Source: a virus. From it: 20,775 nucleotides of DNA. Every line of letters begins with the position of its first letter. Positions within the stretch are counted from its first letter, which is position 1. Below, piece by piece: positions 1 to 18,726 of this stretch. Position numbers and translations under genes: made by a program. Under the pieces are notes generated by a model, which saw nothing but the letters and a program-made list of their open reading frames with translations, made no database searches and was not told where the DNA came from. The stretch lies in IMG/VR virus record IMGVR_UViG_3300046005_003078, positions 1-20,775 of that record; one strand, written 5' to 3'.

Positions 1-1563
1 CTAACACTGCTTAGGTGGTCGCGCCATGGTCGGAACAGCGTCTGTGTATGGTTTCGCTGTTGCGGTTATCCCCGTGGCGCGCTGGCTATAAGGGCTAGAA
101 ATAGGGGTAAGTGCGCGACTGGATAGACAGTACGGGTCTTTGAGGTCGCCACGCTGCACTGTCAGAAGTGAGCTATACGGGCTGATTATTAGCGCCCCGG
201 TGCCCGCAGGCAGGACACGGCCATGAAGTAGGCGGGTGGTGTAGGTGAAAATAAGCCCCGTACTAGGCACGCCAGCCACTCGTCTGTGTGCATAAACCCC
301 TGCACCGGAGCTGGACAAAGTGACGGATGATGCGGTTCCAGCCAGTCGTAGGCTACGGGCGATACCGGTACCAAAGGCAGAAAGGTCCAAGGCAACACTG
401 CCTGCGCCAAGGCTGTACCGGCGATTGATTGATGTAAGGCTAGGAGTAAGTGACAGGGCGGCTGGGGTAGCACCAACGCGGTACGCCGCATGGAGGCCGG
501 TATTTGAGCCAGACAGTGTAAATGTCCCCGCAGTGGCCACCATAGAACGGCCACGGACAAAGGTTGTTGCGGGTGCACTGAGGGACAGACTGGCTTGGCT
601 TGCACCTAAGTGTGACGCCTTGCGGAGCGTCACAGCGGTGCCCGCTAGGCTACCGGTGCCGGTACCAGCCGTGATCCTGTAGCCGATCGTTAGGCCGGTC
701 GATGTCGGGGTAATGGTAAGCGATGCTGGTGCCGGTACCAGCCGTGACGCCTTGCGGAGGCCCGCCCCAGTTGAAGTCAGGGACAGGGTGCCAGTTTGCC
801 CGTTTAGAGTGCGCATTGTGTTCAATGCGGTAGGACCGGTGGACAGTGTGTATGTGCCTGTACCCACCAGAACGCGCCTGCTAGCCTGTAGCGCGGTGGT
901 AGATGGTGAGATGGTGAAAGATGCAGGGGACGCAGAAAGACGTCGCATCGGGGCAATTTGCGCTGAATACGAGGTAATGGCGAGCGTGCCTTGCCCAGCC
1001 GTCAGACTGAAACCCTTAGCAAAGACAGTTGTGGTGCCTGTGAGGGCAATACTGCCTGATACACCGGTAAGGAGATGTGCCCAAATGAGGTTAGCAGGTA
1101 GATCGCCAAGCGCAAAACTGCCAACGCTAGCCGTCAGCCGGTAGCCTCGGGCAAGGATGGTGGTTGTCGGGGTGAGGGATAAATTGGACACCGCCGCAGA
1201 CACAAGGCGGTTGTATTTTAATGCAACTGCAACAGGGGTGAGGGATAGGGCAGCGATGGCTGACGTCAGCCGGTAGCCTCGGGCAAGGATGGTGGTTGTC
1301 GGGGTGAGGGATAGGGACAGTGTATCGGCAGTGAGTGTGTACGTAGAACCTGATGTGACGGCTTGTTGCAGGCCGATTTTGCCGGTGTCTTCTTTCAGCA
1401 CAAAACCACCATCCTCTTTCAGTAAGAATGAGGTAGGTGGGTCAATGACTGGATTATCAAGAAAATCAGCATCCAATACGACACTGGCTTGAGGCTGGTC
1501 CCAAGTGTCGGAACCACCACGTAGCCCGCTTGTTTTTTCTGTTTGCGGGAATTTTGTTTGCAT
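1..1563 (-). CDS. Repetitive phage structural-type protein (520 aa)
   Basis: This 520-residue protein is built from about a dozen imperfect units of roughly 30-44 residues. Each has a serine/threonine/glycine-rich beta-strand pattern such as LSLTPTTTILARGYRLTA, followed by a basic RGYRL/KASRL-type element. The N-terminal 70 residues are non-repetitive and contain FLLKEDGGFVLKEDTGKI. The last 60 residues are also unique and end in PPKQC. Proteins with repeated Gly-Ser-Leu-Thr strands of this kind occur late in phage head/tail operons, but no defined function is known to me; a surface-exposed virion or fibre-like role is an inference. The ATG follows the previous stop codon by 3 bases, which suggests translational coupling. 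Two of its units are encoded by an identical 50-bp sequence, a sign of recent internal duplication. The stop codon is the first three bases of the window, so the gene is complete. Confidence 0.8.
   Translation of the reverse strand: MQTKFPQTEKTSGLRGGSDTWDQPQASVVLDADFLDNPVIDPPTSFLLKEDGGFVLKEDTGKIGLQQAVTSGSTYTLTADTLSLSLTPTTTILARGYRLTSAIAALSLTPVAVALKYNRLVSAAVSNLSLTPTTTILARGYRLTASVGSFALGDLPANLIWAHLLTGVSGSIALTGTTTVFAKGFSLTAGQGTLAITSYSAQIAPMRRLSASPASFTISPSTTALQASRRVLVGTGTYTLSTGPTALNTMRTLNGQTGTLSLTSTGAGLRKASRLVPAPASLTITPTSTGLTIGYRITAGTGTGSLAGTAVTLRKASHLGASQASLSLSAPATTFVRGRSMVATAGTFTLSGSNTGLHAAYRVGATPAALSLTPSLTSINRRYSLGAGSVALDLSAFGTGIARSLRLAGTASSVTLSSSGAGVYAHRRVAGVPSTGLIFTYTTRLLHGRVLPAGTGALIISPYSSLLTVQRGDLKDPYCLSSRALTPISSPYSQRATGITATAKPYTDAVPTMARPPKQC
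1132..1313. repeat. 50-bp perfect direct repeat inside the repetitive protein gene
   Basis: Positions 1132-1181 and 1264-1313 are identical over 50 bases and lie 132 bp apart, exactly 44 codons. Both copies encode the same stretch, LSLTPTTTILARGYRLT, at residues about 84-100 and 128-144. Identity at the DNA level, while the other units have diverged, indicates a recent in-frame duplication or gene conversion. Confidence 0.95.
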
Positions 1564-1566
1564 AGG

Positions 1567-2379
1567 TTAGCCGTGGGCGACTTTGCCGGACCCACGAATG
1601 GTGCCGGTGGTCGTGGTACTGCATAGCATCAGCATCTGGAGACATGAGCTGTTCGGAATGTTTGGCAGGCCAAGCTGTGCCCAGTCCAGTGTCTCCGTTT
1701 TGTTGGCCAGTGGCATAGAGACGCTAGTGCGTGGGCGCGTAGCAGTGATGCCAAAGTTTCCGGCAGTACCGGTTGTCGCAGATAAGGTGACGCCCGTGAC
1801 GGCACGGATAAACTTCCCTGCAACAGCTGACAAAAGCGGATAAAGACGCCCTGCGCGTGGGGTAGCGCCAAGAGCAATAGCGGCAAGACTGCCGGTCGTA
1901 CCGTCGTTGTATTCAACAGCCACGGTCGCGTTCACACCAGTCGCACCCATGGCGGTATAGACCTCTAGCCACCACTGGACGTCGGAATAATTCGAAGCGC
2001 CCAGGCGATCAGCTCCAGGAGAAGTGGTCACAAGGCTAAGCGCCCCCTGAGCCGTGGTCACGATGCCGGATAGCCCGCCCATGCAGGCAAGGCGGTCATG
2101 TATCTCTAGGTTGGTAGCGTTGTTTGACCCCTGCACAGCAAGCCAAGCCAGATATCCTGTCACTGGTGCGGTCTGATTGGTGATACCAAATGCACCCACA
2201 GTGGCATTTGTAGGCACTACAGCGGTCGTTGGTATGGTGCCGGTACCTGGTATGCCCGTGGCTGTCCATAGACTGAAAAACTGCCCAGCAACGGTACTCG
2301 CCAAAGACGCCTTGTCGATAACGAGGCGGTCTGAATCATTGCCGAGTGCGCTAATTAGTTGGTCGCGGGTCGTAAGCAT
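1567..2379 (-). CDS. Phage structural-region protein, 270 aa, function unknown
   Basis: This protein starts MLTTRDQLISALGN and has a glycine/threonine-rich, all-beta-looking body with conserved-looking blocks: FSLWTATGIPG, EIHDRLACMGGLSG, YSDVQWWLEVYT, LANKTETLDWAQLGLPN and a C-terminal GTIRGSGKVAHG. I recognise this layout from hypothetical proteins encoded next to the 138-aa protein in head/tail clusters of tailed phages and prophages, mostly of Proteobacteria. A virion role (decoration, head-tail or tail surface) is inferred from position only. The ATG is 4 bases after the upstream stop and there is no Shine-Dalgarno sequence, so coupled translation is likely. No signal peptide or membrane segment is visible. 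Confidence 0.75.
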   Translation of the reverse strand: MLTTRDQLISALGNDSDRLVIDKASLASTVAGQFFSLWTATGIPGTGTIPTTAVVPTNATVGAFGITNQTAPVTGYLAWLAVQGSNNATNLEIHDRLACMGGLSGIVTTAQGALSLVTTSPGADRLGASNYSDVQWWLEVYTAMGATGVNATVAVEYNDGTTGSLAAIALGATPRAGRLYPLLSAVAGKFIRAVTGVTLSATTGTAGNFGITATRPRTSVSMPLANKTETLDWAQLGLPNIPNSSCLQMLMLCSTTTTGTIRGSGKVAHG

Positions 2380-2383
2380 AGGT

Positions 2384-3104: not shown

Positions 3105-3105
3105 A

Positions 3106-4401
3106 TTAAGCAGCTAAGAAGCCTTTAACAGCAGAAATACTACCAGTCATAAACGCACCGTTGTCGTTTGTCTTGACGTAAGCAGCAAGGTAACGGCGCA
3201 TCTTGATAGAGATGATGTCGTTCTGGAAGTCAGTGCTGTCTGAGTTAGTAATCTCAACTTCAACACCACCGTTTGTACGAACATTGAGGTAACGGAAGTC
3301 ACCAACTAGGAATGTACCAGCAGTGATGCCTGTGTTTTCGATAACACGCGCCCCTTTGATAAGCTGCCCATTTGCAGCATAGAATGACGGCATGATGTAG
3401 TCACCAGAACTATTCTTTGTCAGGTCGAGTTCTTCACTATCAGCAGGGTTCAAAACAATAAAGTTAGGAACAAACTTTCCTTTTCCAGCAACGGCAATCT
3501 TTGTCATTGCGATGCGCAACACATCAAACAAGTTTGCGTTAGGCACTACCTGAACACCTACAGCAGTTACATCAAGCACTGGGGCTACGCCTAGTACACC
3601 TTGTAGGTTTGGCGCTGTCCCGTTTCCTGAGAGCAACTGCGCATCAGTTACAAGGTTAAGGTCTACAGCAAGCATATCCTTAAGCACAGCGACCAATTCA
3701 GGCCCATACTTAAGCAGTTCGTTTGAGTGCTTTGAAATCGCGGCAATCTTCTGAACTGGCTTTGAGTATGACTGGAATGCACGGTCTACTTGTGGAATTG
3801 TTCCCAACTCAGCAGTAGTAGCTGGCGCACCAGTTGATCCAGTCACTTCTGTGTACTTTGCAGAATCAGAATTGATAGGAACTACGTTTGCAATATTTTC
3901 AATGAAAGTAGTGCGAACGGCTGGGCGGGTAATTTCCGCATCCTTTTCAGGCTCAATAACTACGTCAGTGAGGTCTGAACGGTCAGTGCCTTTTGCAAGG
4001 TACGCTAGGTCTGCATCACTTTTTAGAGTAAACACAGCAGTACCACCAGACTTTTGCATTGACTCGAATGACTTTGTCACCGCTTCAACGTCAAATGATG
4101 CCTTTTGTACTGGCAATTCTACTTTGCTTGAGCGAGTAGCAGCCTTTTCTGCAAGCGCGTCAAACATCTTTTCAACAGCTTCAGTTGTCTTCTGAATCTG
4201 AGCAACAGCAGCGGCGTCACCAGCTTTGAGAGCCTTTTGCATAGCCTCTGAAAGCATTTTAGTAGCTTCATCTACACCACTTTCGATATCAACCGCAGAT
4301 GTGTCAGTTGCTAACACTTCTTGGTCAACACCGTCTTTTTGTAGGACCACCCCCTTCTCGTCACAATAAAACTTCTTGCCGTTAATGAATTTGAAAAACA
4401 T
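3106..4401 (-). CDS. HK97-fold major capsid protein
   Basis: This 431-aa protein fits the phage major capsid family with the HK97 fold (Pfam Phage_capsid). The N-terminal ~120 residues are charged and helical (for example MLSEAMQKALKAGDAAAVAQIQ), like the scaffold-type delta region that the head protease removes in HK97. The shell domain follows, with FIENIANVVPINSD, SYSKPVQKIAAISKHSNELL, the loop LLSGNGTAPNLQGVL (about 256-270), a spine-like stretch around FIVLNPADSEELDL and a C-terminal strand DIISIKMRRYLAAYVKTNDNGAF. The first 20 residues (MFFKFINGKKFYCDEKG) are unusual and cysteine-containing. The gene follows the protease, the usual order. The ATG is preceded by an A/T-rich stretch without a Shine-Dalgarno sequence. 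The delta cleavage site cannot be placed from sequence alone. Confidence 0.92.
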   Translation of the reverse strand: MFFKFINGKKFYCDEKGVVLQKDGVDQEVLATDTSAVDIESGVDEATKMLSEAMQKALKAGDAAAVAQIQKTTEAVEKMFDALAEKAATRSSKVELPVQKASFDVEAVTKSFESMQKSGGTAVFTLKSDADLAYLAKGTDRSDLTDVVIEPEKDAEITRPAVRTTFIENIANVVPINSDSAKYTEVTGSTGAPATTAELGTIPQVDRAFQSYSKPVQKIAAISKHSNELLKYGPELVAVLKDMLAVDLNLVTDAQLLSGNGTAPNLQGVLGVAPVLDVTAVGVQVVPNANLFDVLRIAMTKIAVAGKGKFVPNFIVLNPADSEELDLTKNSSGDYIMPSFYAANGQLIKGARVIENTGITAGTFLVGDFRYLNVRTNGGVEVEITNSDSTDFQNDIISIKMRRYLAAYVKTNDNGAFMTGSISAVKGFLAA

Positions 4402-4469: not shown

Positions 4470-5114
4470 TTATCCTTTGTATTGCCTGATGGCCTTATTT
4501 ATCAACGCAACGGCGTTCATCTTTCGTGATACGGCAGGGTCTGTTGCCACAATCGCCGCCTCCATTTGTGCCTTTGTTTCGATGAGTGTATCTACAACAT
4601 CCCCGCCTTTCACGAGTGCGCGGCGGTTTGAGCCGATGCCCACGAGTGAACACTCCATGAGTTCGCAAGACTTAAGGATAAAGCAGTCCTTATTCTCATC
4701 ATACTCCACCACGTGCGGAATGAAGCCCACAGAAACCATGTTTAGGTCGCCACGCACAACGTGATCCCACGCGCGCTGTATCTCTGGGTCTACATCAACT
4801 GCAAACTCAGCCTCGCCCATGAGCATGTTCTCGGCTGGGTTCTCTGGGTCTGGTTCAAGCCAAACACGTAGCCACTTACCAAGAGGAAAATCGTTTGAGC
4901 GGTGCCCCCAGAAAAAGGCTGGATTCTTTTGGAAGTGCTCCAGCATCCAGCTGTTTTGGTCAACAATGTCGCCGTGACGGTCTACACTCGATGTGGACAT
5001 TACAAAGATGGCAGTGTGCTTTTCTTTGTTGATAGAGACAGACTTTTGCGCGATGTCCATGTCATATCGCTTGCCTATCATTTCTAGTGCTTTTGTTTTC
5101 ATCTCTGGTTTCAT
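4470..5114 (-). CDS. HK97-type prohead maturation protease
   Basis: The 214-aa product matches the HK97 prohead protease family (Pfam Peptidase_S78), which cleaves the capsid scaffold domain during head maturation. Likely catalytic residues are His71 in FFWGHRS, Ser128 in NMVSVGF and the acidic residue Glu154 in ELMECSLVGIGSN. The N-terminal strand IFVMSTSSVDRHGDIV is also typical. A C-terminal helical tail after residue 170 may act in assembly or self-cleavage. It sits between portal and capsid, as expected. Two in-frame ATGs (5114 and 5102) are possible starts; neither has a good Shine-Dalgarno sequence, and the first is given. Confidence 0.92.
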   Translation of the reverse strand: MKPEMKTKALEMIGKRYDMDIAQKSVSINKEKHTAIFVMSTSSVDRHGDIVDQNSWMLEHFQKNPAFFWGHRSNDFPLGKWLRVWLEPDPENPAENMLMGEAEFAVDVDPEIQRAWDHVVRGDLNMVSVGFIPHVVEYDENKDCFILKSCELMECSLVGIGSNRRALVKGGDVVDTLIETKAQMEAAIVATDPAVSRKMNAVALINKAIRQYKG

Positions 5115-5148: not shown

Positions 5149-7173
5149 TTATAAGGCTGGGGCGAGCACACAACGACAATTTACAGAGTGCTCCCCTGGG
5201 TAACTTTCTCCGTCTGGGAACGCGGCACCCTTTGGCACAATGACACCTGAGTTCATCTCGTGGTCGTCACGCACGTTGTCGTCACCTGCCGTTATCCACT
5301 CCTTGCCAGTAATCACACTGGACTGGGCATAGGCGTCGTTTGTTGCCTTTGAGAGTGCAAACGCTGTCTCGGTGCGGGCAATGGTCTTAGCCCTGCCTAC
5401 ACTCATGTCATCAAAGTACTCGCGCAGTGAGCGCCCGATAGCGTCAACCCCGTCACCTGCGGCGATACCGGCAGTGATTTTGGTTTTCAGTACTTCAAAG
5501 GTGGTGTCTGTGATGGAGTCAGCAAAGAAACGGACACGCCCCTCAATCGCGGCAATCATCACCTCATCAGCAAAGAAATCAGTGGCTGATTTGCGGAAAA
5601 TGGCGTCTAGGGCGTCCTGTCCACCCTCCTTGTACAGTTTCACCACAACAGGGGTAAACGCCTCTCTAGCGGCTCGTTTCTCGCCTTGTACGTCCATAAA
5701 CGAGTGGACATCTAAGTCGGTGGCTAGGACACGCTTCAACAAGGCATCATGATACTTGTCTACAGCCTCCTTTAGCACCTCAGCCTTGCGGTCAATTTTG
5801 CTGTTTACCGCCTTAGCATACTCAACTTTCATCGACTTAGTGGCGAATATGCTTGTCATTTGGCGCTCAGGCTGTGCGAGCTGCGTGAGCTTTAGCATTT
5901 CACTGATCGCATCCAGCTTCTGCACCAGCACAGGACGCGCACGCAGGATCTGTTTTGCTTTTGCTTTGAGGTCAGTGGACGTGGTGTCCTGGACACTCGA
6001 TGCCCCAAACGACACCTCCCCGAGGGTGTCATGCCCATCAATAGCTGGGCGGTTTGTTTCGAGGCGTGCTTCGTTCTGAGTTATCCACTTGCCGACACCA
6101 GCCTTATGCTCCTCTAGCACCATGGCACGGTCCACAGGCACGGGGTCTGTGAAATCAAAGAACACCGTCTGGTCTATTTGAGGGATAAGGCGGAAGTTGG
6201 CACTGTCTATGAATGCCTCAAGCACCGGTACCACGGCTTCGGTTAGGTACATGCGGTACGCTTCCTTAGCATTTGCCATGTTCACATCATCGCTCGTCAC
6301 CATGGCTTTAGGGATGCGTAGCGCCGCCATAATGTCATCACGCAAGAAGTGTTGTGACTGGATAAAGTCCATCTCTTTAGGTGTCTTGTTTAACTCCTGT
6401 ACTGATTTAACGTTGCGCCCAAAAAACCCAACATTGCCACTGTTGTTATTGCCAAATACTCGTTTCCAGTCGGCGCGGGCTTCATCTGCTTGCTCAGCAG
6501 ACACCTCAGTATCTGCAAAAATAGCAAGGTCTGGTCGCCCTTGGTTCTTAAAGAATTGCGCCTGGTACTTCGTAGCTTCAATTTCGGTAAGAATACGCGA
6601 CATGGCTGGGCGCACGACACCAACCCCACGCAACGGATTTGTAGGGTCTGGGTTCTTGATATGGACCATATTCTCTGGTGCTACAGTCAGCACTTCGCCG
6701 GACCGATACTCATATCCAATGATACGCTTTGCATCCTTGGACAGTAGTATTTGCACGTTATCAGGGCGCAAGGGAATAATCTGCTTAATGGTGGTACCAG
6801 CACGATCTAACAGCCAAAAACAGTCACCAGAAAGCAGGTAGTGGGTTATGGACACCTCCATAAACTCGCGCCCAGTTTGTATGTCATTTGGATTATTAAA
6901 CAGTGCCAATACAGGGTGGTCAAACACCTCCGTCACGTCACCGCGTTTGTTCTTTATCTTGTATAGCTCAAGCGGAATACCAGCTGCCCGCTTAGCAATC
7001 ATGGAAACACCGATATACAGATACAGGCTCTGCTTGTATGAATTGAGGTTATTTATATCTTGCGAGTGCTCAAACCCCGAAAACCCGCTTGTACCGGAAA
7101 CAAGGCTAAATGACTTTGTGCGTGATAAATTGCGCTGCGTACTTCTAAATAGTCTTCGTAAAGCGTGTGGCAT
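5149..7173 (-). CDS. Portal protein fused to a MuF-like minor head domain
   Basis: I start this gene at the ATG at 7173 (674 aa, MPHALRRLFRSTQRN), 16 bases after the TerL stop. The reading frame stays open upstream to 7290, but that part overlaps the end of TerL and is not portal-like. Residues about 50-390 are an HK97/PF04860-type portal domain, the dodecameric ring through which DNA enters the head, with SITHYLLSGDCFWLLDRAG, RPDNVQILLSK and NPLRGVGVVRPA. A helical linker follows. The last ~110 residues resemble the Mu gpF/SPP1 gp7 domain (Phage_Mu_F): RAKTIARTETAFALSKATN, ITAGDDNVRDDHEMNSG and the terminal EHSVNCRCVLAPAL. Portal-MuF fusions are known in other phages; here the fusion saves a separate head-completion gene. 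No Shine-Dalgarno sequence is visible at the chosen start. Confidence 0.9.
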   Translation of the reverse strand: MPHALRRLFRSTQRNLSRTKSFSLVSGTSGFSGFEHSQDINNLNSYKQSLYLYIGVSMIAKRAAGIPLELYKIKNKRGDVTEVFDHPVLALFNNPNDIQTGREFMEVSITHYLLSGDCFWLLDRAGTTIKQIIPLRPDNVQILLSKDAKRIIGYEYRSGEVLTVAPENMVHIKNPDPTNPLRGVGVVRPAMSRILTEIEATKYQAQFFKNQGRPDLAIFADTEVSAEQADEARADWKRVFGNNNSGNVGFFGRNVKSVQELNKTPKEMDFIQSQHFLRDDIMAALRIPKAMVTSDDVNMANAKEAYRMYLTEAVVPVLEAFIDSANFRLIPQIDQTVFFDFTDPVPVDRAMVLEEHKAGVGKWITQNEARLETNRPAIDGHDTLGEVSFGASSVQDTTSTDLKAKAKQILRARPVLVQKLDAISEMLKLTQLAQPERQMTSIFATKSMKVEYAKAVNSKIDRKAEVLKEAVDKYHDALLKRVLATDLDVHSFMDVQGEKRAAREAFTPVVVKLYKEGGQDALDAIFRKSATDFFADEVMIAAIEGRVRFFADSITDTTFEVLKTKITAGIAAGDGVDAIGRSLREYFDDMSVGRAKTIARTETAFALSKATNDAYAQSSVITGKEWITAGDDNVRDDHEMNSGVIVPKGAAFPDGESYPGEHSVNCRCVLAPAL

Positions 7174-7189
7174 ATACCAAAAGTATACA

Positions 7190-8386
7190 CTAGGCGAATA
7201 ACTTACCTGCACGGCGACCGCCAGAGCCATACCTGATGGCATCAAGCGCGTGGTTATCGTAGTCCTGCGGGTTATTTGTGACCTTGCCACTTCTATCGCG
7301 CAGCCAGAGGTAGTTACGGTATTCTTTCAATGTTTCAGTGGAGCGCTTGGTGATTGAACAGGCAGTATCTTGAATGTAGCCAATACCTTGGTTCACACTC
7401 CCTGCCCCTTTGCTGGCCGGAATGACGTTTACACCATAACTCTTTAGCTCATCAATGGACTTTGGCTCAGCACTATCTGCGATAACTAGGGCATTTTTAT
7501 AGGTTCCTAGCGCATCTGCTATGGCCTTATTGCTCATGCCCTTGCGGTACAAAATCTCGTCAAAAATCAACCCTCCATTGTATTCATAGATAGCCACTGC
7601 GGCAGTCGGGTCGTTGGTATAACCAAAGTCCAAACCAATAGCTTTGAGACGGGCCTCGTGTGGGATATCGTCAACGAGTTTCCAACCCGTATAGATACGC
7701 CCCTCAACCTCGCCCAGCTGCCCAAGACCATAAACTTTCCACCACTCAGGACGGTTCTTGCGTTGCTCGATGGACGCCACTGTACGCGCGTCTAGGGCTT
7801 CGTTATCCAGGTACGTAACTGTGAGCATGTCTACGTCGTCCCGCTTGCCCAGCACGTCGGTATAAAACCAAAACTCAGCGCTCGGGTTCCAGTCAAGCCA
7901 GACACTTTCGCTGGTACGCACCTCTAGCTGTTCAAACGCATCAAAAGATACGTTGTTTGCTTCGTTTATGTACAGGCGTTGGCGTCTGGCACCGCGTAGC
8001 TTGTCTGGTTGGTCTGCGGAGAAAAACTCAATCTGCGAGCCTGTTTCAAAGGTATATATGAAATCGGACCGGTTCCACTGAGCGTCATCGTAGTAGCCGT
8101 GCTCACGCATTATTTTCAAAAAGTCACGAATGGCACCACGTTTAAGGTGGGGCAAGCTTTCGGAAACTATAGAAGTGAGCACCGGCTCTTTAACCCAGCT
8201 AGCGGCGTGTTCCGAGACCTGACACCCCTTTTCACCACACACGGTGCAAGTATAGTCAGATTGAGCAAGGCCAATAAGTATCAGCTCAATACTGATTGTT
8301 TTAGAGGCTGACGTACCACCTGGCACAGCCTTGATACGCTTTGTGAGCGCTTTAATCTTGCGCGTTGCCGTTGTCTCGATGAACAT
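7190..8386 (-). CDS. Terminase large subunit (PBSX/Terminase_3-like)
   Basis: The ATP-driven motor and nuclease for DNA packaging. Starting at the ATG at 8386 gives 398 residues beginning MFIETTATRKIKAL; the frame stays open to 8419, but this start fits the family better and overlaps terS by 35 bases. The ATPase part has the Walker A-type GGTSASKT, then LPHLKRGAIRDFLKIM, EFFSADQPDKLRGARR, a Walker B-like RLYINEAN and WLDWNPSAEFW. The RNase H-fold nuclease shows acidic residues in GLDFGYTNDPTA, LVIADSAEPKS and NHALDAIRYG. Just after the Walker A region is an insertion carrying CTVCGEKGCQVSEH, a possible zinc knuckle not expected in this family. The motor would dock on the portal encoded next. 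Confidence 0.92.
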   Translation of the reverse strand: MFIETTATRKIKALTKRIKAVPGGTSASKTISIELILIGLAQSDYTCTVCGEKGCQVSEHAASWVKEPVLTSIVSESLPHLKRGAIRDFLKIMREHGYYDDAQWNRSDFIYTFETGSQIEFFSADQPDKLRGARRQRLYINEANNVSFDAFEQLEVRTSESVWLDWNPSAEFWFYTDVLGKRDDVDMLTVTYLDNEALDARTVASIEQRKNRPEWWKVYGLGQLGEVEGRIYTGWKLVDDIPHEARLKAIGLDFGYTNDPTAAVAIYEYNGGLIFDEILYRKGMSNKAIADALGTYKNALVIADSAEPKSIDELKSYGVNVIPASKGAGSVNQGIGYIQDTACSITKRSTETLKEYRNYLWLRDRSGKVTNNPQDYDNHALDAIRYGSGGRRAGKLFA

Positions 8387-8846: not shown

Positions 8847-8853
8847 ATGTAAA

Positions 8854-9081
8854 TTATAGCCCATTACGATTAACAATGCGCCAGACAAAGGTGCGCCCCC
8901 TACGCACCCGCCGCACGTCAAGCTGTGTCCTCGTCAATATCAGGCTGGCATCAACAGCGATTTCCTGTAGCTCTTTCTTGTCCAGCTCAGCAAAATCAAT
9001 GTCTAGTAGGTACCGACCACGCTCCTGCCGATAGCGGAATATGGCAAGACGTAAATCCTGTAAGCGAATGGATGTAAGCAT
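8854..9081 (-). CDS. Small basic protein, 75 aa, upstream of terminase
   Basis: I choose the ATG at 9081 (MLTSIRLQDLRLAIFRYRQE) because a GGGGAAA Shine-Dalgarno-like run sits 5 bases upstream; the frame is open to 9114. The protein is rich in Arg and Leu with no membrane segment, and ends in a strand-like DVRRVRRGRTFVWRIVNRNGL. I do not recognise a family. Position directly before terS suggests a packaging or late-gene accessory role, perhaps nucleic-acid binding, but that is inference from charge and position. The Shine-Dalgarno run lies in one arm of an inverted repeat (9087-9144). Confidence 0.6.
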   Translation of the reverse strand: MLTSIRLQDLRLAIFRYRQERGRYLLDIDFAELDKKELQEIAVDASLILTRTQLDVRRVRRGRTFVWRIVNRNGL

Positions 9082-9086
9082 GGGTA

Positions 9087-9144: not shown

Positions 9145-9145
9145 A

Positions 9146-10667: not shown

Positions 10668-11384
10668 TTATGCAGCGATGCGTTCACACACACCGTCAAT
10701 GATGTCGTGCAGCACCTTAGTACCTTGCGGATTTTCAGCGACCTTGCCAGTCAGTGCAAATGTGCAAGCGTTGAAAAGACGCCACGGGCTATGATCGCCC
10801 CAGTCATGCGGCGGGCGGTCATAGGCATCAACCACGTCACCGATGCGGGTGAGGTTGATAACGCCCTTGCGGAACATTTCCATGATGCCATGGTTCATGA
10901 GCTGATCCGGCAACGGAAGCGCCTTGTACCGGTCAAAGCGTACCGTTTGCTGGCGGCGTTGGTCGGCCAGCGGTTCGATGATTTCCGCAATCAATCCAGG
11001 CAGTTCCCTTTTGATTTTGGGAGTGTGCCGCCGCTTGATGACGTGCTCACCGGTAAATGCCATGTTGTCGCAGCAGAAGACCCGACTGCCGAAGCTTACG
11101 CCCACGGGAAACGACTTGTCGTGGCTGTTCCGAAGACCAACCATGTCCGTGTAGTCGCCATGCTCCGACCGCAACGACAGAACACCAAAGAAGCGGTCGC
11201 CAGTTGGCGTAACGCCGTAGTCCTCCCCCACCACCTCGTGACCAAAGAATGTCAGCGAGTGCTTCACGTAGTCCACCACTGAATGGTGGGGGATAGGGTA
11301 GTGGGTTGATGTTGGCGCTGGGGTCGCAAGGGCGCGCAAACTGGCGTAGCCAATTGGGGTTGCCCCCGAGTGCAGCATTAGCAT
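10668..11384 (-). CDS. DUF932 phage/plasmid-like protein
   Basis: This 238-aa protein belongs with the DUF932 (phage/plasmid-like, TIGR03299-related) family, recognisable from SLTFFGHEVVGEDYGVTP, FFGVLSLRSEH, VGLRNSHDKSFPVGVSFG, GSRVFCCDNMAFTGEH and, at the C-terminus, DWGDHSPWRLFNACTFALTG. Members are widespread on plasmids and phages. Their biochemical role is not established; links to DNA metabolism are suggested by genomic context only. A strong AGGAGG site precedes the ATG and overlaps the stop codon of the 88-aa gene, so the two form an operon ending at the hairpin terminator at 10631-10660. It is shorter than many family members but shows no break. Confidence 0.9.
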   Translation of the reverse strand: MLMLHSGATPIGYASLRALATPAPTSTHYPIPHHSVVDYVKHSLTFFGHEVVGEDYGVTPTGDRFFGVLSLRSEHGDYTDMVGLRNSHDKSFPVGVSFGSRVFCCDNMAFTGEHVIKRRHTPKIKRELPGLIAEIIEPLADQRRQQTVRFDRYKALPLPDQLMNHGIMEMFRKGVINLTRIGDVVDAYDRPPHDWGDHSPWRLFNACTFALTGKVAENPQGTKVLHDIIDGVCERIAA

Positions 11385-11745: not shown

Positions 11746-12555
11746 TTATTGGTTCAGGTCTATGAATGGCACTGTAGCGTTTGGAACCATCGTTGTAGGG
11801 ACGTTACCGTTCCACTTCTCAATGGCCTTTAGCTTTACGTAGTCTGCACCACCCTGTGATGTTACAGCTTCCGCCTGAATGCGGATAGATTCCGCCTCGG
11901 CTTTGGCTGTTACAACCTTTTGCTCCGCCTCATACTTTGTTTGTTCCAGCTTATTCTTTGAGGCTAAAGCATCTTGTTCTGCCTGCACTTTGGCCTCTAC
12001 AGCCTGATTAAACGCCGGTGAAAAGTCAAAGTTGGTAATCAGCACCTCTGTAACAATGATGTTGCGTGTAGCTAGGCGCAATTTCAAGTCTTGATAGATA
12101 ACCCCCTTTACCTCCTCACGCTTTGTAATAAGCTCCTCGGCTGTATACTTAGCGGTAGCCCCCTTTACCGCTTCTTGTACACTAGGCTCAATTACGCGTG
12201 TTGAATATTCAGTTTTTAGCTCACGATAGATGTCCACCACCTTTGAGCTATCAAGATTGTAGTTGACAGACACTTGTGTACTGACTGACTGCAAATCCTT
12301 ACTGGCTGCGCTCGCTGGCACCGCCAATTGTTGCGTTGTAATGTCCATTTTCACTACATTAGTAGTAAACGGATTGACTAAGTGAAGACCCTCACCGATT
12401 GTTCCGTCAATAGCCCCAAACTTAGTGATGATTCCTACTTGCTGCGACTGCACCATTGCAAAAGGGTTCATTATTAGCAGAACTACAAGAAATAGAAACA
12501 ACACAACTCCGCTCACAATCCACTTGACCCTACCGTCTGTTTCGTTTTCGTACAT
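11746..12555 (-). CDS. Prohibitin/SPFH (Band 7) membrane protein
   Basis: The 269-aa protein has a single N-terminal membrane helix (about residues 12-30, IVSGVVLFLFLVVLLIM) followed by an SPFH/Band 7 domain: VGIITKFGAIDGTIGEGLHLVNPF, VPASAASKDLQSVSTQVSVNYNLD, EPSVQEAVKGATAKYTAEELITKREEV and VTEVLITNFDFSPAFNQAVEAK, each only approximately bounded. A coiled coil runs from about 185 to 230 (KLEQTKYEAEQKVVTAKAEAES), as in prohibitin and HflK/C relatives. These proteins form large ring or cage assemblies that organise membranes and control proteases such as FtsH. A phage copy could tune host proteolysis (for example lysis-lysogeny decisions) or membrane state; this is inference. It overlaps the preceding 43-aa gene by 26 bases and has no Shine-Dalgarno sequence, so it is probably coupled to it. 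Confidence 0.92.
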   Translation of the reverse strand: MYENETDGRVKWIVSGVVLFLFLVVLLIMNPFAMVQSQQVGIITKFGAIDGTIGEGLHLVNPFTTNVVKMDITTQQLAVPASAASKDLQSVSTQVSVNYNLDSSKVVDIYRELKTEYSTRVIEPSVQEAVKGATAKYTAEELITKREEVKGVIYQDLKLRLATRNIIVTEVLITNFDFSPAFNQAVEAKVQAEQDALASKNKLEQTKYEAEQKVVTAKAEAESIRIQAEAVTSQGGADYVKLKAIEKWNGNVPTTMVPNATVPFIDLNQ

Positions 12556-12684: not shown

Positions 12685-12735
12685 ACCAAAGCCTATTACC
12701 TCCTTGCGAGTGGTAATAGGCTTTGGTCGCAAGGA
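12685..12735 (-). promoter_or_regulatory. Leader hairpin with two mutually exclusive pairings
   Basis: Positions 12685-12700 and 12712-12727 form a perfect 16-bp stem with an 11-base loop. The loop (12701-12709, TCCTTGCGA on the plus strand) is also perfectly complementary over 9 bases to 12727-12735, immediately outside the stem, so the two pairings compete. On the transcript the loop and descending arm read AAGGAGGT, a perfect ribosome-binding sequence with no ATG at proper distance. The element sits between a good promoter and the mini-protein/SPFH genes, so it is transcribed as their 5' leader. It has no T-run and is therefore not a normal terminator. Confidence 0.7.
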
Positions 12736-12788: not shown

Positions 12789-13316
12789 TCACCACGACCA
12801 TTTGGGCGGCAAGTGCAGTTCCGTAGCACCTACATACCCTGCAAGTTTTCCGTTTGCCAACCTCACTGGTATAGCAACCTTGCCTTTGAGCATACCCCTT
12901 GGGGCGTACCCAATTCCTAAGCGTTCCGCGTCCCCAGGCTCAAAGCCCAGAGCTACAACCGCTTCATGGTCGTGGATCAAGTATTCCAAAGGCTTGAATC
13001 CCTCACTGGGTGGTTCTCCCTTGGTAGCCTTCTCCTTGGACCGTTCAGCACCAGAAAGCCATGAAGCCGCTTCCTTGGCACCAATTCCTTTCACATGTGA
13101 AACCAATTGGATTTGGTCGCCACCCTTGCCCCATGTAAAGCAAAAGAAGACGCCCTTTTCCGGTGTAACGACAAGATTCCTGTCGCCACTACTTTCGCAC
13201 GTGGGACACTTCCCACGAAAGCTTGAGCCTGCCTTGTTGAGGTTCAAGCTAAGCCGCTCTACCACCTCACTGATGGGATTTGCAGCTTTAATTTCCTCAA
13301 AATTAAGGAACGACAT
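12789..13316 (-). CDS. Stand-alone CHC2-type primase zinc-finger protein
   Basis: The ATG at 13316 (MSFLNFEEIKAANPISEVVE) is chosen because GGAGG lies 8 bases upstream; the frame opens at 13349. Residues 7-85 resemble the N-terminal zinc-binding domain of DnaG-type primases: PISEVVERLSLNLNKAG, FRGKCPTC (Cys37, Cys40), a beta hairpin, FFCFTWGKGGD (Cys59) and LVSHVKGIGAKEAASWL. The usual fourth ligand is absent (Trp62 where Cys is expected). The C-terminal part (LGIGYAPRGMLKGKVAIPVRL, GYVGATEL) resembles the segment that leads into a TOPRIM fold, but the catalytic TOPRIM and helicase parts are missing at 175 aa. It could be a DNA-binding accessory for replication. The gene looks intact rather than truncated, with a clean terminator. 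Confidence 0.78.
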   Translation of the reverse strand: MSFLNFEEIKAANPISEVVERLSLNLNKAGSSFRGKCPTCESSGDRNLVVTPEKGVFFCFTWGKGGDQIQLVSHVKGIGAKEAASWLSGAERSKEKATKGEPPSEGFKPLEYLIHDHEAVVALGFEPGDAERLGIGYAPRGMLKGKVAIPVRLANGKLAGYVGATELHLPPKWSW

Positions 13317-13420
13317 TGGAATATCCTCCACTGGGTTATCCAATACCATTGTACACCCCCACGTAACTAATTACCCGCCTGTGTAGTACTATTGGTGTAG
13401 GACAACAGAAGGAGATTGTT

Positions 13421-13642
13421 ATGTCCAACGCACCAGTCAAGAAGTTCCGCATCGGTCTTGTGGTCGCCACTGTGTGGAAAAACGAAACAGATGGCGGCAA
13501 ACCGTTCTACACCGTCAACTTTCAGCGCCAATACAAGAACAGCGCTGGCGAGTGGCAAGCAGGCGACAACTACAACCACGATGATCTGCTGAACATGGCA
13601 AAGGTTGCCGAACGTGCAGAATCCTATATCGCGGAACAATAG
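13421..13642 (+). CDS. 73-aa protein, only plus-strand gene
   Basis: A short ORF beginning MSNAPVKKFRIGLVVATVW with a beta-rich middle (PFYTVNFQRQYKNSAGEW) and a helical end (DLLNMAKVAERAESYIAEQ). It has an excellent AAGGAG ribosome binding site 7 bases before the ATG, a TACTAT -10-like element at 13387-13392 without a clear -35, and a strong terminator after it, so it is an autonomous transcription unit. Similar small proteins occur on plasmids and phages as hypotheticals; I know of no function. It is transcribed divergently from the CHC2-like gene and convergently with the replication-relaxation gene. Single-stranded-DNA or replication accessory roles would fit the neighbours but are inference. 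Confidence 0.82.
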   Translation: MSNAPVKKFRIGLVVATVWKNETDGGKPFYTVNFQRQYKNSAGEWQAGDNYNHDDLLNMAKVAERAESYIAEQ

Positions 13643-13649: not shown

Positions 13650-13684
13650 CCCCCGACACTAATCTGTCGGGGGTTTCTTTGTTT
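13650..13684 (+). terminator. Intrinsic terminator after the 73-aa gene
   Basis: Nine-base-pair stem CCCCCGACA (13650-13658) with TGTCGGGGG (13665-13673), 6-base loop, then TTTCTTTGTTT on the plus strand. It overlaps the 3' end of the convergent replication-relaxation gene. Confidence 0.92.
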
Positions 13685-14663
13685 GCAGATCGGCAAAGGT
13701 GACAGGTGGCAAGCCCCCACGTTTCCACTCACCGGAAAACATAAGCTCTGGGAAGGGACTTGGTGCAGACAGCAACTCCTCCTGGACCGGCACAGTCTTG
13801 ATGAGAAACATCTCCGATGACCCAAACAGGTCAACAATCAGGTTCTGAATCTTAGTTGCTGCCGTCAGTGGTTTGCCTGTGCGGTGTTCGTTTGCCAGCA
13901 CCTCGGGCTGATGAGGCGACACAATAAGGACTGTGAAGCGCTTTTTGCCTAGATTGCGAAACATGGCGTCACTAGCCCAGATGTCAGCGTATGACAGCAA
14001 TTTTTTCAGCGTGGAGGTATTCTCAAAGGTGTTGCGATAGGGCGCGCTGTAGTGTTCTGCCTCTAGGACAAACAAGCGGGTGCGTCCGTCTGGGTACTTA
14101 ATGCCAAATACCCCGTCTGGGCGCGCATACGTGGTTATGCGCTCATGGTGTCCATTGCGAAAAGTATGATTGAGGGTGCAAGGTATTTTCAGCGGGTCCG
14201 TGACCGAGCTATGTTCGACAATCTCCCCCTCGGGAATGAAGGTATACCCGTCAGCATCGCGCACACCAATCTCGATAGATGACAGGGTGTCACATATCAT
14301 CATCGCATGGCTAAACTGCTTTGGCTGCGCATACGAGTACATGCGCAAGATGTTTGTAACTGGCGGGTGTTCGATGGTTATGCGCTTTTGACCCGCTGGC
14401 GTTAGCTCATAGATGTCGCTGTCGTTAAGCGAGTTCCAGCCCAGAAACTGCTTACGCGGTTTGTCCACGAGTTCGACGCCATGCAGTTTATTAAGTGCGT
14501 GGTTCACTGTCTTCCGTGGGCGACCTACGAGGCGGGCAATATACCCACCACGTAGGTAACGGTAGCGACTGAGTTGTAACAGAATCTGCTTATCGAGTTC
14601 TGTAAAACGCCACTCTTTAGTCTTCCACTTTGGGTCGCGCATGTAGCGCTTCTTTTTTATCAT
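13659..14663 (-). CDS. Replication-relaxation family protein
   Basis: The 334-aa product fits the Replic_Relax family (PF13814), proteins linked to plasmid replication and DNA relaxation. The N-terminus is a winged helix: LDKQILLQLSRYRYLRGGYI, ARLVGRPRKTVNHALNKL, then a wing with YELTPAGQKRI. The central and C-terminal part has a strand pattern RPDGVFGIKYPDG followed by FVLEAEHYSAPY, an Asp/Glu-x-Glu arrangement reminiscent of a restriction-endonuclease-like fold, although catalysis is not shown. This family often sits beside VirD4/TraG-like ATPases, as here. The ATG is 4 bases after the 133-aa gene stop, with a second in-frame ATG at residue 8; there is no strong ribosome binding site at the first, so coupling is likely. 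Confidence 0.82.
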   Translation of the reverse strand: MIKKKRYMRDPKWKTKEWRFTELDKQILLQLSRYRYLRGGYIARLVGRPRKTVNHALNKLHGVELVDKPRKQFLGWNSLNDSDIYELTPAGQKRITIEHPPVTNILRMYSYAQPKQFSHAMMICDTLSSIEIGVRDADGYTFIPEGEIVEHSSVTDPLKIPCTLNHTFRNGHHERITTYARPDGVFGIKYPDGRTRLFVLEAEHYSAPYRNTFENTSTLKKLLSYADIWASDAMFRNLGKKRFTVLIVSPHQPEVLANEHRTGKPLTAATKIQNLIVDLFGSSEMFLIKTVPVQEELLSAPSPFPELMFSGEWKRGGLPPVTFADLQTKKPPTD

Positions 14664-14667: not shown

Positions 14668-15069
14668 CTATTTTACCATCTTGCAGATAAAGTAGTTGTC
14701 AAACTGGATGTCATACGTCCAGTCGTCTAATGCCAAAGCTTCTGCGTGCAGAACAGGTACCAGCCTGCCAAGATAGACTTCCCTGCCCTCTTTCAAGAAA
14801 ATAAGCGTGGCTTTAGGTTCGGCGCTAGAGTTGAAGCTATGGATATGCAAGATGCTTTCCTCATCATCCAGCCAGGGAGAAATAAGGTTGTAGTTGTGCA
14901 TCTGAGCTATGAAAGAGTGTTCCAACTGCCCCTTATACTTGCCAAGCAACGGCTTATGCCACACGCCGAGCGAAGTCATGCTGGACTTAAAGGCGTTCAT
15001 GGTTATGAGCGACTGCCCGACACAAAAGATGAAGTAGGTGTCCGAGCTGGACTGTGGGTGTATCGACAT
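14668..15069 (-). CDS. Unknown 133-aa protein in the transfer-like module
   Basis: I use the ATG at 15069 (MSIHPQSSSDTYFIFCVGQS), which has GGAG 8 bases upstream; the frame is open to 15108. The protein is alpha/beta-looking with GKYKGQLEHSFIAQMHNYN, WLDDEESILHIHSF, ATLIFLKEGREVYLGRL and a C-terminal DDWTYDIQFDNYFICK. No membrane helix or catalytic motif is evident. I have an impression of small phage/plasmid proteins with the same order of blocks but cannot name the family. It is followed immediately by the replication-relaxation gene, so the two probably act together. The ribosome binding site lies in a hairpin stem, which may make expression conditional. Confidence 0.68.
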   Translation of the reverse strand: MSIHPQSSSDTYFIFCVGQSLITMNAFKSSMTSLGVWHKPLLGKYKGQLEHSFIAQMHNYNLISPWLDDEESILHIHSFNSSAEPKATLIFLKEGREVYLGRLVPVLHAEALALDDWTYDIQFDNYFICKMVK

Positions 15070-15100
15070 AGAAAATCTCCATTGAGGTTGGAGATTTCTA
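15070..15100 (-). promoter_or_regulatory. Hairpin covering the ribosome binding site of the 133-aa gene
   Basis: On the minus strand AGAAATCTCC and GGAGATTTTCT pair (one bulge) around a 9-base loop, ending at the ATG. The second arm contains the GGAG ribosome-binding core, so the stem would block initiation when formed. Confidence 0.5.
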
Positions 15101-15144
15101 ATGTTCACACATTTTGACGGCTGTAACCGTTCGCTATGAGTAGC

Positions 15145-15387: not shown

Positions 15388-15393
15388 AGATTG

Positions 15394-15650: not shown

Positions 15651-17540
15651 CTACCACTTGTCAGTGCTGTCTGCATCAGGTGGTGGCTTCTTGGAACGAG
15701 GTTTGCTCTGAGCGCGGGGGTTTGCCTCCAATTGCAGTATTCCGTATGTATGCTGCATGTACCGATGAAACGCGACCATCTCCTCTGGCTTGTGCTGTGG
15801 TTGTCTATCAATGCGTCCAATGTCCACGTTCCATTCAAACGGGTATCTTTGTCCGCGTATAGACCCAAGGAAAGTATGCGGAGGCAGGCGGTCCACAACC
15901 TCAGGCTCAACGCGCATTTGCTTTGCGCGGGCATTGAGTTCCTCAGCCGATATCCCAGCTGAAAACTTGATGGACGTGTTAGCCGATATCGATGAAGCCA
16001 AGAGTGGCGGAAGCTGGCCGAGAAACTGGTGTGTCACTATCAGACCCAGCTCATACTTACGAGCTTGGGAAAAGATGCGCAGCAATATGTCACTGTCCTC
16101 TGCGTAGTCTCCAAACTCATCAATGTATAGGTACACCCGCTTGCGAGTGCCTTGTGCCTTACTCATGACTGCCTGCAAGACAAGCGCCACAAACACCCGC
16201 CCCAAGAGTGCAGCACCAGATTTTAGCAACAAGCTATCTGTATTGACGAGGATAACCTTGCCGTCATCAATCGCCTGCGCGATGTCTAGCTTCATTGTCG
16301 GCGCACCAAACATACGAGCAAGGGCTGGGGTATCGAGCACCTGCATGATGCGGCGTAGTACCTGTTGCCGTGTTTCGTTGTAGTGATTATTTTTTGGTCG
16401 CTCAAACTCATCAAAGAAGACAATGGCATTTTCGCCAAGACGTTCAATTTCGGCGCGGTATGGCGCGGTACCGTTTGGACGCAATAGGTCACGCATTGTG
16501 GCTAGGGTTGCCCCTGGGATTTCCATGCACAGCCGTGATAGGTTTCGATACACAAGCGCCTGCATACCAGTGAGCTTGGCATCTAAGCTTGAGAAGATGT
16601 ATTCATAGAGGTCGAGCGCATCAGATATACTCTGCTCATCGCCGTCACGGCTAGAAAAAATGTTTAATGCTGGGGGGCAAATAACTGGGTCAACGAGTAT
16701 TTGACGATCAAGAGGCACCACGAAGGATAGGTTAGTTATTGTGTCGCGCTGGCTGTCAATCACAACTATCGCAACATCGTTTTCAAGGTCATCTAGCACC
16801 ATGTTATACATGAGCTGTGTCTTCCCTACTCCACTCCCCGCAATGATATGGTGATGGGCTGTACGTATCTTTTCTGGCAGTTGCAGCTTTACTTTCACGT
16901 TTCGTAGGTGCGAGTAAAAACCAGTATCAACTATGCCATGGGAAGCAAGAGCGGAAATATCATCAGGAAACTTTCCAATGATTGACAATGGCGTTTCACC
17001 GCGTACAAGCATCTCACGATTAGGTATGCGCGCCAGTAATACGTCCAGCATACGTGCATCACGTTGCGCCATAGTTAGTGTTAGCAGATGCCCCATCGCA
17101 GGGTTATACGTTTTCAGAGCAAACGCTCTGTACTCCTCGGTCAAGATGCTTTCTAAGGGCTGGGGTATTTGTAGTGCTTCTGAAAATGTGCGGGTGGCGT
17201 CCGCTGGGGTGGCGTGGTCTGGGTCTACATTAACAGAATCTGTTTGCCCTGCCACTATTTGTTGGAGCACACCTATTAGGAATGGGAACTGCCGCTTTAC
17301 TGGGTAAATCACAAACCCCAGGCATATTATTATTAAAGCCCACGCAGTGTAGAAGTTAATTGGTAAAGGGAATACATAGATTATAATTAAACCAGAGCCA
17401 CCAATAAAGTAGTCCTCAATGTACTCAAATAAACCAAATTTATCGTCACTATGTATCTTAGCCCCAACTGCCAAGATAAACATTGCGGCCCAAAAATTAC
17501 CAGCTATCACTATCACATCAATTAGAAATGGCCCCAGCAT
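15651..17540 (-). CDS. VirD4/TraG-like DNA-transfer ATPase with membrane anchor
   Basis: This 629-aa protein has the layout of a type IV coupling protein. The first ~85 residues contain two or three hydrophobic segments (about 5-26, 48-62 and 64-80). The ATPase domain has Walker A GSGVGKT (235-241), a motif VVIDSQRDT (259-267) and Walker B VYLYIDEFGDY (469-479), followed by IVTHQFLGQLPP (501-512), a sensor-like Gln region shared with HerA/VirD4 enzymes. The C-terminal tail is Pro/Lys-rich (QSKPRSKKPPPDADS). Such hexameric pumps move DNA or DNA-protein complexes through or along membranes. An AGGAG site sits 6 bases before the ATG. It is downstream of a second, related ATPase and upstream of the mini-genes. 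No VirB4 or other channel component is visible in the window. Confidence 0.9.
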   Translation of the reverse strand: MLGPFLIDVIVIAGNFWAAMFILAVGAKIHSDDKFGLFEYIEDYFIGGSGLIIIYVFPLPINFYTAWALIIICLGFVIYPVKRQFPFLIGVLQQIVAGQTDSVNVDPDHATPADATRTFSEALQIPQPLESILTEEYRAFALKTYNPAMGHLLTLTMAQRDARMLDVLLARIPNREMLVRGETPLSIIGKFPDDISALASHGIVDTGFYSHLRNVKVKLQLPEKIRTAHHHIIAGSGVGKTQLMYNMVLDDLENDVAIVVIDSQRDTITNLSFVVPLDRQILVDPVICPPALNIFSSRDGDEQSISDALDLYEYIFSSLDAKLTGMQALVYRNLSRLCMEIPGATLATMRDLLRPNGTAPYRAEIERLGENAIVFFDEFERPKNNHYNETRQQVLRRIMQVLDTPALARMFGAPTMKLDIAQAIDDGKVILVNTDSLLLKSGAALLGRVFVALVLQAVMSKAQGTRKRVYLYIDEFGDYAEDSDILLRIFSQARKYELGLIVTHQFLGQLPPLLASSISANTSIKFSAGISAEELNARAKQMRVEPEVVDRLPPHTFLGSIRGQRYPFEWNVDIGRIDRQPQHKPEEMVAFHRYMQHTYGILQLEANPRAQSKPRSKKPPPDADSTDKW

Positions 17541-17598
17541 GTCTGCTCCTACACAACCAAAGTTAGCCTAGCTAGGTAGTGTAATGTGTCAAGATTTT

Positions 17599-18726
17599 TC
17601 AACAATAGCGTGTCATAAGGGCATCATTTTCTCGCGTAGCTGGCGCAACGTAGTTACGCAGAATGTTCGACCGTATCTGTCGGTAGCTGGCTTCGTAGGG
17701 CGTAAAGGACAGGGGAGAGGTCGTGACCATGCGCGGTGTGACGCCATCAAATGCCCACAACGTGTACGATGGCAGCTCGTACGGCTGTATTTCCTGCTCG
17801 CCAAGCTTCGGTAGCCCGTCCCTGTCGTCCATAGACACGCGAAAGGCAAACTGGCTAGCGTTGGCATTCAGACTGTCACGTAGCTTCGCGTCCAGCTGTC
17901 CAAGGTACTGATGCACGGCTGTGATGGTCACATTAAACTTGCGGATGCCAGACAACATCTCAGCAATCGGGTCCGGTGCCCAGGTATGCACTTCGTCAAG
18001 GTACAAGCAAAACGGCACGGAAGGGTCGCGGGCTAGTAGGGCTTGGTGAAGCTGGGTAAGGAGCAACGAGCCAAGCATCGCAGTCTTTTCTAAGCCTAGT
18101 TCTCCTTGGGGTAGTCGGACGAAAAGTATCTTGTCCTTTACGATGTCCTTTAGACATAGGCGGGACACTGTGCCTGCAATTGCCCGCACACGTGGGTCCA
18201 CCATCAGTATCTGAATTTTGTTTAGGGTACTTTCAATCTGCAAATCCTGTTGCTTCTTGTCGAGCATCTCAAACTGGTGCCAGTACTGTACCACCACAGG
18301 GTCCAAAACGGCGTCTAGGACGTGAAAACGATAGTCACGCGACACCAACATCAAATACATACCAAAAAGGCTATGACGGGCCTCCATGAGCGCCACAAGG
18401 GTATTGTAGACAACACCATCCATGCGCGGTGTAGCTATTTCGGAATACTTCCAAACAGAACGAAAAGTATTCACAAACATGCTGGCGGTCATCGGGATAT
18501 TTTCGGCGTCAAGCGGGTTCCACGGAACAGCGAACTGAGACGGGTCAAAAATCAAAACATCTTTACGCCGAGCGCGCGGAATAAATTGTAAAATGTCATC
18601 AGTATCGTGACCGTGTGGGTCAAAGTAACAGACACTGTGCCCCGCGTGGATGTCAGAAATCAGCCACTCTTTCATCAGGGTTGTTTTGCCAGTCCCGCTG
18701 GCACCTAGCAAATGTCTATGCGCCAT
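17599..18726 (-). CDS. Second VirD4/HerA-like ATPase lacking an N-terminal domain
   Basis: The 375-aa protein starts MAHRHLLGASGTGKTTLMKE, so Walker A (residues 8-15) is almost at the N-terminus and no membrane anchor is present. It continues with VCYFDPHGHDTDD (32-44), VLIFDPSQFAVPWNPLD (57-73), a helical insert, RLPQGELG (204-211), Walker B FCLYLDEVHTW (239-249) and TAVHQYLGQLDAKLRDSL (269-286). These match TraG/VirD4-type pumps and parallel the neighbouring 629-aa ATPase (both share HQ-Y/F-LGQL after Walker B), so the pair look like paralogs. The frame stays open upstream to 18795 without ATG, GTG or TTG but with coding-like residues just before the Met; a rare CTG at 18753 is an alternative start. 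No ribosome binding site is obvious. A soluble partner for the anchored ATPase is an inference. Confidence 0.88.
   Translation of the reverse strand: MAHRHLLGASGTGKTTLMKEWLISDIHAGHSVCYFDPHGHDTDDILQFIPRARRKDVLIFDPSQFAVPWNPLDAENIPMTASMFVNTFRSVWKYSEIATPRMDGVVYNTLVALMEARHSLFGMYLMLVSRDYRFHVLDAVLDPVVVQYWHQFEMLDKKQQDLQIESTLNKIQILMVDPRVRAIAGTVSRLCLKDIVKDKILFVRLPQGELGLEKTAMLGSLLLTQLHQALLARDPSVPFCLYLDEVHTWAPDPIAEMLSGIRKFNVTITAVHQYLGQLDAKLRDSLNANASQFAFRVSMDDRDGLPKLGEQEIQPYELPSYTLWAFDGVTPRMVTTSPLSFTPYEASYRQIRSNILRNYVAPATRENDALMTRYC

Follow-up and report, generated by a model that had tools for sequence, protein, structure and literature searches.

Why would a temperate tailed phage carry, between its integrase and its head genes, a group of genes that looks built to mobilise plasmids? 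IMG/VR record IMGVR_UViG_3300046005_003078 raises this question, and its entire 20,775 bases form the stretch of DNA analysed here (the window). All main genes of the window lie on the minus strand, in the order integrase, AlpA/Xis, a 126-aa gene, a nested hairpin, a small soluble VirD4-like ATPase (ATPs), a large membrane-anchored VirD4/TrwB-like ATPase (ATPl), a PF13814 protein, CHC2, the small and large terminase subunits (terS and terL), portal-MuF, protease and HK97 capsid. The record covers the portion from integrase to capsid of a temperate siphovirus in its integrated state. It seems to be a provirus cut back to gene borders, because both ends match gene ends exactly: one, at base 1, closes an open reading frame (ORF), and the other, at 20,775, is the integrase start codon. 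Neither att site nor host flank is therefore part of it. We read the early operon, tentatively, as the MOBC relaxase/VirD4 coupling-protein mobilisation module of this siphovirus, with helper-dependent transfer and a probable use in rolling-circle replication.

Head genes and early module in one element

Pfam and PHROG matches bear out, from terS at 8921 to the capsid gene at 3106, the HK97-type packaging and capsid set that an earlier, sequence-only reading of this DNA had placed on one strand. The set comprises terS (8352-8921; PF20901, 2.6e-40), terL (7190-8419; Terminase_3C PF17288, 1.2e-13; 78% to G001, a viral contig introduced below), a portal fused to a Mu F-like protein (5149-7290; PF04860, 2.9e-58; PF04233, 3e-14), an S78 prohead protease (4470-5114; PF04586, 1.2e-4; phrog_617, 1.1e-22; phrog_80) and the HK97-type major capsid protein (3106-4401; PF05065, 8.3e-30). 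Terminase, portal, prohead protease and HK97 capsid follow one another as in an HK97-fold tailed phage (Caudoviricetes, siphovirus). Beyond them lie a virion-region protein matching phrog_644 (2384-2800; 1.2e-9) and a repetitive virion-region protein (1-1563) related to G001 6690-9620, which in that contig precedes adaptor, neck, tube and tape measure genes. Tail tube, tape measure and head-tail connectors fall beyond the end of the record and are found downstream of the homologous capsid gene in G001, G792 and G793. At the opposite end of the window is a tyrosine integrase (19753-20775; Arm-DNA-bind_3, 2.9e-10; Phage_integrase, 1.1e-8; phrog_1, 3e-39), whose position matches in G001, G002, Roseovarius and G793.

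Relatives of the portal led to two contigs, G001 (29,389 bases) and G002 (29,847 bases), in which the window's genes occur in identical order; G001 runs on into head-tail adaptor, neck, tail tube, tape measure and tail-tip proteins. Further viral contigs were gathered by searches with large ATPase, relaxase and capsid profiles, and local profile scans found the module together with head genes in L140, G785, G786, G788, G790 and G793. Co-linear order is kept in the window, G001, G002, G782/L140, G793, G785, G786, G788 and G790. G793 is a 40-kb record spanning integrase through tail, G785 has a Terminase_6N gene and a Phage_capsid gene, and terminase and portal are present in G791. Recognised virion genes occur in 7 of the 11 contigs retrieved by the large ATPase alone; G783 holds no recognised virion gene, and spot checks left large ORFs of G784, G787 and G789 unassigned. 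The ATPl gene adjoins the relaxase gene at each of the 15 viral loci checked, and likewise at 10 of 10 alphaproteobacterial loci with both genes inside the fetched stretch (one pair on opposite strands). When 50,697 phage records were searched, the large ATPase matched only Mwe-JY31 and the small one only gp156 of Bacillus phage G, and the lineage therefore seems unrepresented among deposited phages.

These contigs also settle whether head genes and early module belong together. An assembly chimera, or two abutting elements, was worth considering: the record's ends are cut at gene boundaries, and the sequence-only reading had left open a join or boundary between about 8900 and 13600. Recurrence refutes it, as the order spans the supposed join in G001, G002, L140, G785, G793 and others. 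A gene for a 441-aa protein (9146-10471) links the modules and has a 41% identical counterpart at the corresponding position of G001, a contig that also has the small genes of 11394 and 13367, in unchanged order; there is thus no join in this interval, and a chimera is vanishingly improbable. The claim that both modules lie in one element holds, and their co-occurrence extends to many contigs.

Parts of the module and its carriers without virion genes

Both ATPases have intact Walker A and B motifs and match phrog_5156 (5e-20 and 1e-24), with weak matches to TraD/TraG/TrwB. ATPs (17599-18726, 375 aa; phrog_5156, 1.2e-24; Walker A GASGTGKT, Walker B LYLDE) has no predicted transmembrane (TM) segment. 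ATPl (15651-17540, 629 aa) has N-terminal TM helices, and TrwB is the best PDB match of its predicted structure (Foldseek 3.7e-14; VIA Z 28 over 352 residues). The model consists of a RecA-like NTPase with an inserted all-alpha domain, and the alignment spans both TrwB domains. It is this fold, rather than profile scores, that sustains the call of VirD4/TraG-like ATPases made from the sequence alone. TM helices are present in 8/8 full-length ATPl members of the nearer groups; the ATPl of two distant phages is TM-less, and its gene directly follows one for a short TM protein.

The gene at 13659-14663 encodes a replication-relaxation, or MOBC-type relaxase-family, protein (PF13814, 7.7e-8), as the sequence-only reading had it. 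Its score for Pfam Replic_Relax is 33.1 bits against a cut-off of 25.3, and some relatives fall below that cut-off. In the structural model (pLDDT 83.5) the N-terminus is a MarR-like winged helix (VIA Z 9.8, 83 residues), and the C-terminal half is a putative PD-(D/E)XK domain, with PD183...E201-x-E203 and an alpha-beta-beta-beta-alpha-beta order. H119, D183 and E201 are invariant across 15 relatives. A PDB search with the relaxase profile returned only chance matches of the winged helix-turn-helix (wHTH) type. MOBC relaxases have been described as wHTH plus PD-(D/E)XK (PMC12857230), and PF13814 is the MOBC relaxase domain that is paired with VirD4 in streptococcal integrative mobilisable elements (IMEs) (PMC5357655).

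The structured candidate origin is now a conserved nested hairpin at 18833-18965, directly upstream of ATPs, and is a candidate cis site (origin of transfer, oriT, or replication origin). It folds at z -8.75 as DNA and at -9.6/-11.9 as RNA on the two strands. A hairpin of 126-151 nucleotides stands directly upstream of ATPs in six elements, namely the window, G001, G002 (with one extra ORF between hairpin and ATPase), Roseovarius, G784 and G793; the five that were folded as DNA have z between -7.3 and -8.8. Structure is conserved by covariation: in a MAFFT alignment of the six, 19/33 pairs are changed on both sides and 85.5% of cells pair, against 35-42% when the alignment is slid, and 0/500 shuffles match any of the observed measures. 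Since nested inverted repeats are rare across 2.9 Mb of fetched loci (in a loose search), a hairpin in the same place in six elements is not due to chance. The long arms are nearly all Watson-Crick (285 pairs versus 8 G-T, counted on the strand shown), which would be expected if they form a DNA palindrome; an RNA is possible too. Both strands fold better than shuffles, the plus strand slightly better in most elements. Rfam gave no match for the hairpin, and none was found near the small ATPase in more distant Rhodobacteraceae elements. Separately, a TACAAT box is followed by another inverted repeat (18727-18832) that reaches over the sequence immediately ahead of the ATPs start codon; this arrangement is also present in G001, Roseovarius and G793 and may serve promoter and translation control.

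The module is not confined to phages. In Roseovarius tolerans the order is integrase, AlpA-like gene, conserved gene, hairpin, ATPs, ATPl, relaxase, CHC2 and DUF932-like gene, followed by hsdM, hsdS and hsdR, a complete type I restriction-modification (RM) system where the phages have head genes (L101:9248-16404). VirB4 is encoded elsewhere in this genome, which makes a helper channel plausible there. Other Rhodobacteraceae genomes also carry the module without virion genes. ATPl and relaxase genes are neighbours on a Sulfitobacter plasmid with RepA/RepB, and on the Methylomagnum plasmid pRS11DPr5, which has its own replication proteins, a transposase splits them. Mwe-JY31 (PP438423.1, L199), deposited as a Microcystis phage, is probably a plasmid, since it has a replication initiator, ParA (as annotated) and a resolvase/DNA invertase beside the ATPase-relaxase pair, and no virion gene was recognised among ten proteins checked. 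On none of these three is the pair the sole replication system. The window relaxase had no tblastn match among plasmids, nor the G002 relaxase among phages, whereas a profile search does find Mwe-JY31 and plasmids. Small trees (mixed support, 46 to 100) set the Roseovarius copy amid those of phages and place the Sulfitobacter/G783 pair beside G784/G785, so that phage and non-phage carriers are intermixed. The lineage is linked to Alphaproteobacteria. Patescibacteria were rejected as hosts: most ATPases brought up by a contig scan were theirs, but at ~30% identity and without neighbouring module genes, and the near match was Roseovarius tolerans. On pRS11DPr5 a nested inverted repeat (L198:4060-4150) lies ~500 bases upstream of the replication-relaxation gene, beside the replication initiator, and is a possible origin or oriT.

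Mobilisation and the other roles considered

If the early operon is a mobilisation module, integrase and AlpA would excise the prophage, and the PF13814 protein, a wHTH plus PD-(D/E)XK nuclease, would nick at or near the hairpin. ATPl, aided by ATPs, would dock the relaxosome and push the strand into a mating channel supplied by a resident helper plasmid or integrative and conjugative element (ICE), and the prophage could leave as an IME in addition to leaving in virions. Rolling-circle replication probably starts from this nick too, which would give concatemers for terminase packaging. This second use is likely because the phage genes scanned hold no other recognisable initiator, and it is compatible with mobilisation. 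We lean towards mobilisation because what CloDF13 and streptococcal IMEs need in order to use another element's channel is a relaxase of the MOBC type, a VirD4-like coupling protein and a site in cis (PMC7431656, PMC5357655); the MOBC plasmid CloDF13 supplies its own coupling protein, the TM domain of which is essential (PMC7431656). The window holds the gene set of an IME, that is, integrase, relaxase and coupling protein with no mating-pair formation (MPF) genes. The description of a mobilisation-type module thus agrees with the MOBC-type family, the TrwB-like membrane ATPase, the hairpin and the presence in virion-less elements; movement by DNA transfer, which the sequence-only reading had also suggested, remains a proposal and would need a helper type IV channel. 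A siphovirus lineage with two cell-to-cell routes, virions and helper-dependent conjugation from a hairpin oriT, its module exchanged with capsid-less mobilisable elements, is a possibility that we entertain with some doubt.

Several findings weigh against mobilisation. Matches of the ATPases to curated type IV coupling protein profiles (TrwB_AAD_bind, TraD, TraG) fall below cut-off, those to TraD and TrwB far below it, for which reason we call them only VirD4-like, and the fold scores of VirB4 (27.0) and DndH (26.5) for ATPl are near that of TrwB, with HerA lower. In three distant phage copies no TM helix is predicted in ATPl or in the preceding gene. The likeness of the window's PF13814 protein to known relaxases is weak by sequence, and the fold search with its C-terminal half gave a weak match to the restriction enzyme PfoI, at rank 19 only. 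Near the hairpin no direct-repeat array like the binding site of pAD1 TraX was found. Scans of the 20 main window proteins brought up no VirB4, pilin or channel family, as the sequence-only reading had noted, and with no MPF or channel gene in the window, an incomplete record, the element does not qualify as an ICE.

The module might instead be a phage replication initiator only, in which the PF13814 protein nicks the hairpin as an origin, CHC2 helps prime and the ATPases translocate phage DNA, with no conjugation at all. It occupies the usual replication-gene site of temperate siphoviruses, and scans of the window proteins and of extra G793/G792 proteins turned up no DnaB, polymerase or initiator family. 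Relaxases of conjugative elements can also initiate replication, as NicK of ICEBs1 does, which suits this explanation. The idea of a relaxase with such a double role is also raised in PMC5357655. However, the ATPase-relaxase pair also occurs on plasmids that have Rep genes of their own, and so its original role was not replication; nor is there an obvious replication job for a membrane-anchored coupling-type ATPase. We therefore consider a role in replication alone unlikely, though well worth keeping in mind.

The TM helices kept near the window would also suit a membrane ATPase that pumps phage DNA at the envelope or fixes its position there, whether to take up injected DNA, to exclude superinfecting phages or to segregate the prophage after excision, and an injection role has been proposed for the FtsK-like ATPase of Bacillus phage Pony (PMC3853050). 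Such a pump seems improbable to us, as it leaves unexplained the obligate relaxase neighbour, the hairpin and the same pair on virion-less plasmids, and the ATPases would have to be made before acting on infecting DNA. Intracellular segregation, the alternative offered by the sequence-only reading, found no specific support. Both ATPases match PADLOC mad8 (1.3e-13, 1.4e-11), and the DndH and HerA folds are close to that of ATPl, which could point to a defence or counter-defence cassette of HerA/Mad8-type ATPases with a nuclease effector. We give this very little credence: beyond mad8, PADLOC detects no partner from a MADS or HerA system; the module has a constant position in the phage core, next to the integrase, and not one among variable cargo; a conserved DNA hairpin goes with it; and real RM cargo is located elsewhere in Roseovarius and G793.

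Neighbouring genes, precedents and meaning

Next to the integrase gene is an AlpA/Xis-like excisionase or regulator of 61 aa (19526-19711; PF05930, 8.3e-14), followed by the conserved 126-aa gene (19042-19422), an ORF in the position of genes common to G001, G002 and Roseovarius, which has no match in Pfam, PHROG, NCBIfam or PADLOC. A 146-aa protein (14668-15108) has a weak likeness to phage S-adenosylmethionine lyase, an anti-restriction function (PF23780, 0.0016, under cut-off), and a 64% relative in G001. ArdC-like genes occur between the CHC2 and terminase genes in G002 and L140, and the right arm of G793 (L179:4748-6234) carries a BglII-like restriction endonuclease and an N6/N4 methylase pair, with an ERF recombinase close by. 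On the plus strand, opposite to all main genes, an ORF of 73 codons with a good ribosome-binding site (13421-13642) belongs to no Pfam family. The CHC2 zinc-ribbon (DnaG-like) protein of 186 aa (12789-13349; PF01807, 5.9e-11) has no match to the catalytic primase domain. A 43-base inverted repeat (12685-12727; opposite-strand self-match, 86%) separates its gene from that of a Band 7/SPFH membrane protein (11746-12555; phrog_200, 2.2e-51), also within the phage early region. The DUF932-like gene (10668-11384; weak PF06067, 0.025; 55% to Roseovarius RT_12) recurs immediately upstream of terS in relatives.

The combination of genes is not categorically new, since Tyroviruses, 268TH007 and Pony precede it. 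The Tyroviruses, or Thrax phages, of Bacillus encode a type IV secretion protein (gp17) beside a replication-relaxation protein (gp18), and their authors considered the region plasmid-derived and suggested a plasmid-prophage lifestyle (PMC9703825). Like the present lineage, they are temperate tailed phages in which a gene for a coupling-type ATPase neighbours one of the PF13814 type. However, they infect Bacillus, carry many replication genes as well as additional ParM and Rep genes, and have some relatives that lack the cassette, whereas the window's lineage comprises ~30-40 kb integrase phages with two ATPases, a conserved hairpin and apparently this as the only candidate replication or mobilisation module. 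ATPl has no BLAST-level match in Tyroviruses. Tailed phages 268TH007 of B. subtilis and Pony of B. megaterium also pair a DNA-translocase gene with a PF13814-type gene (PMC9476937, PMC3853050), but the ATPase is of the FtsK/SpoIIIE rather than the VirD4/TrwB type, and neither the two-ATPase arrangement nor a hairpin is reported there.

Outside phages, the MOBC1 plasmid CloDF13 (MobC, MobB) and pAD1 with TraX likewise combine a MOBC relaxase with their own TM-anchored VirD4-like coupling protein and no channel (PMC7431656, PMC12857230). These are plasmids without virion genes, whereas the window adds a second, soluble ATPase, and no direct-repeat binding site was found near its hairpin. Streptococcal IMEs of class 8 resemble it in their compact set of integrase, VirD4 coupling protein and PF13814 relaxase within an integrated element (PMC5357655), but have a serine integrase, reside in Firmicutes and lack capsid genes. 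The new points are the module's constant position at the core of the early region throughout a diverse lineage of siphoviruses, its pair of ATPases, its covarying hairpin and its occurrence in elements that have no capsid.

Mobile DNA is commonly sorted into phages on one side and conjugative elements on the other; a phage family with a conserved relaxase, coupling protein and hairpin would offer a testable case of one element using two routes between cells. One portable module puts phages, plasmids and integrative elements on a continuum. Should its role lie in replication only, it would still represent an uncommon phage strategy, in which a relaxase starts the replication that supplies the packaging motor.

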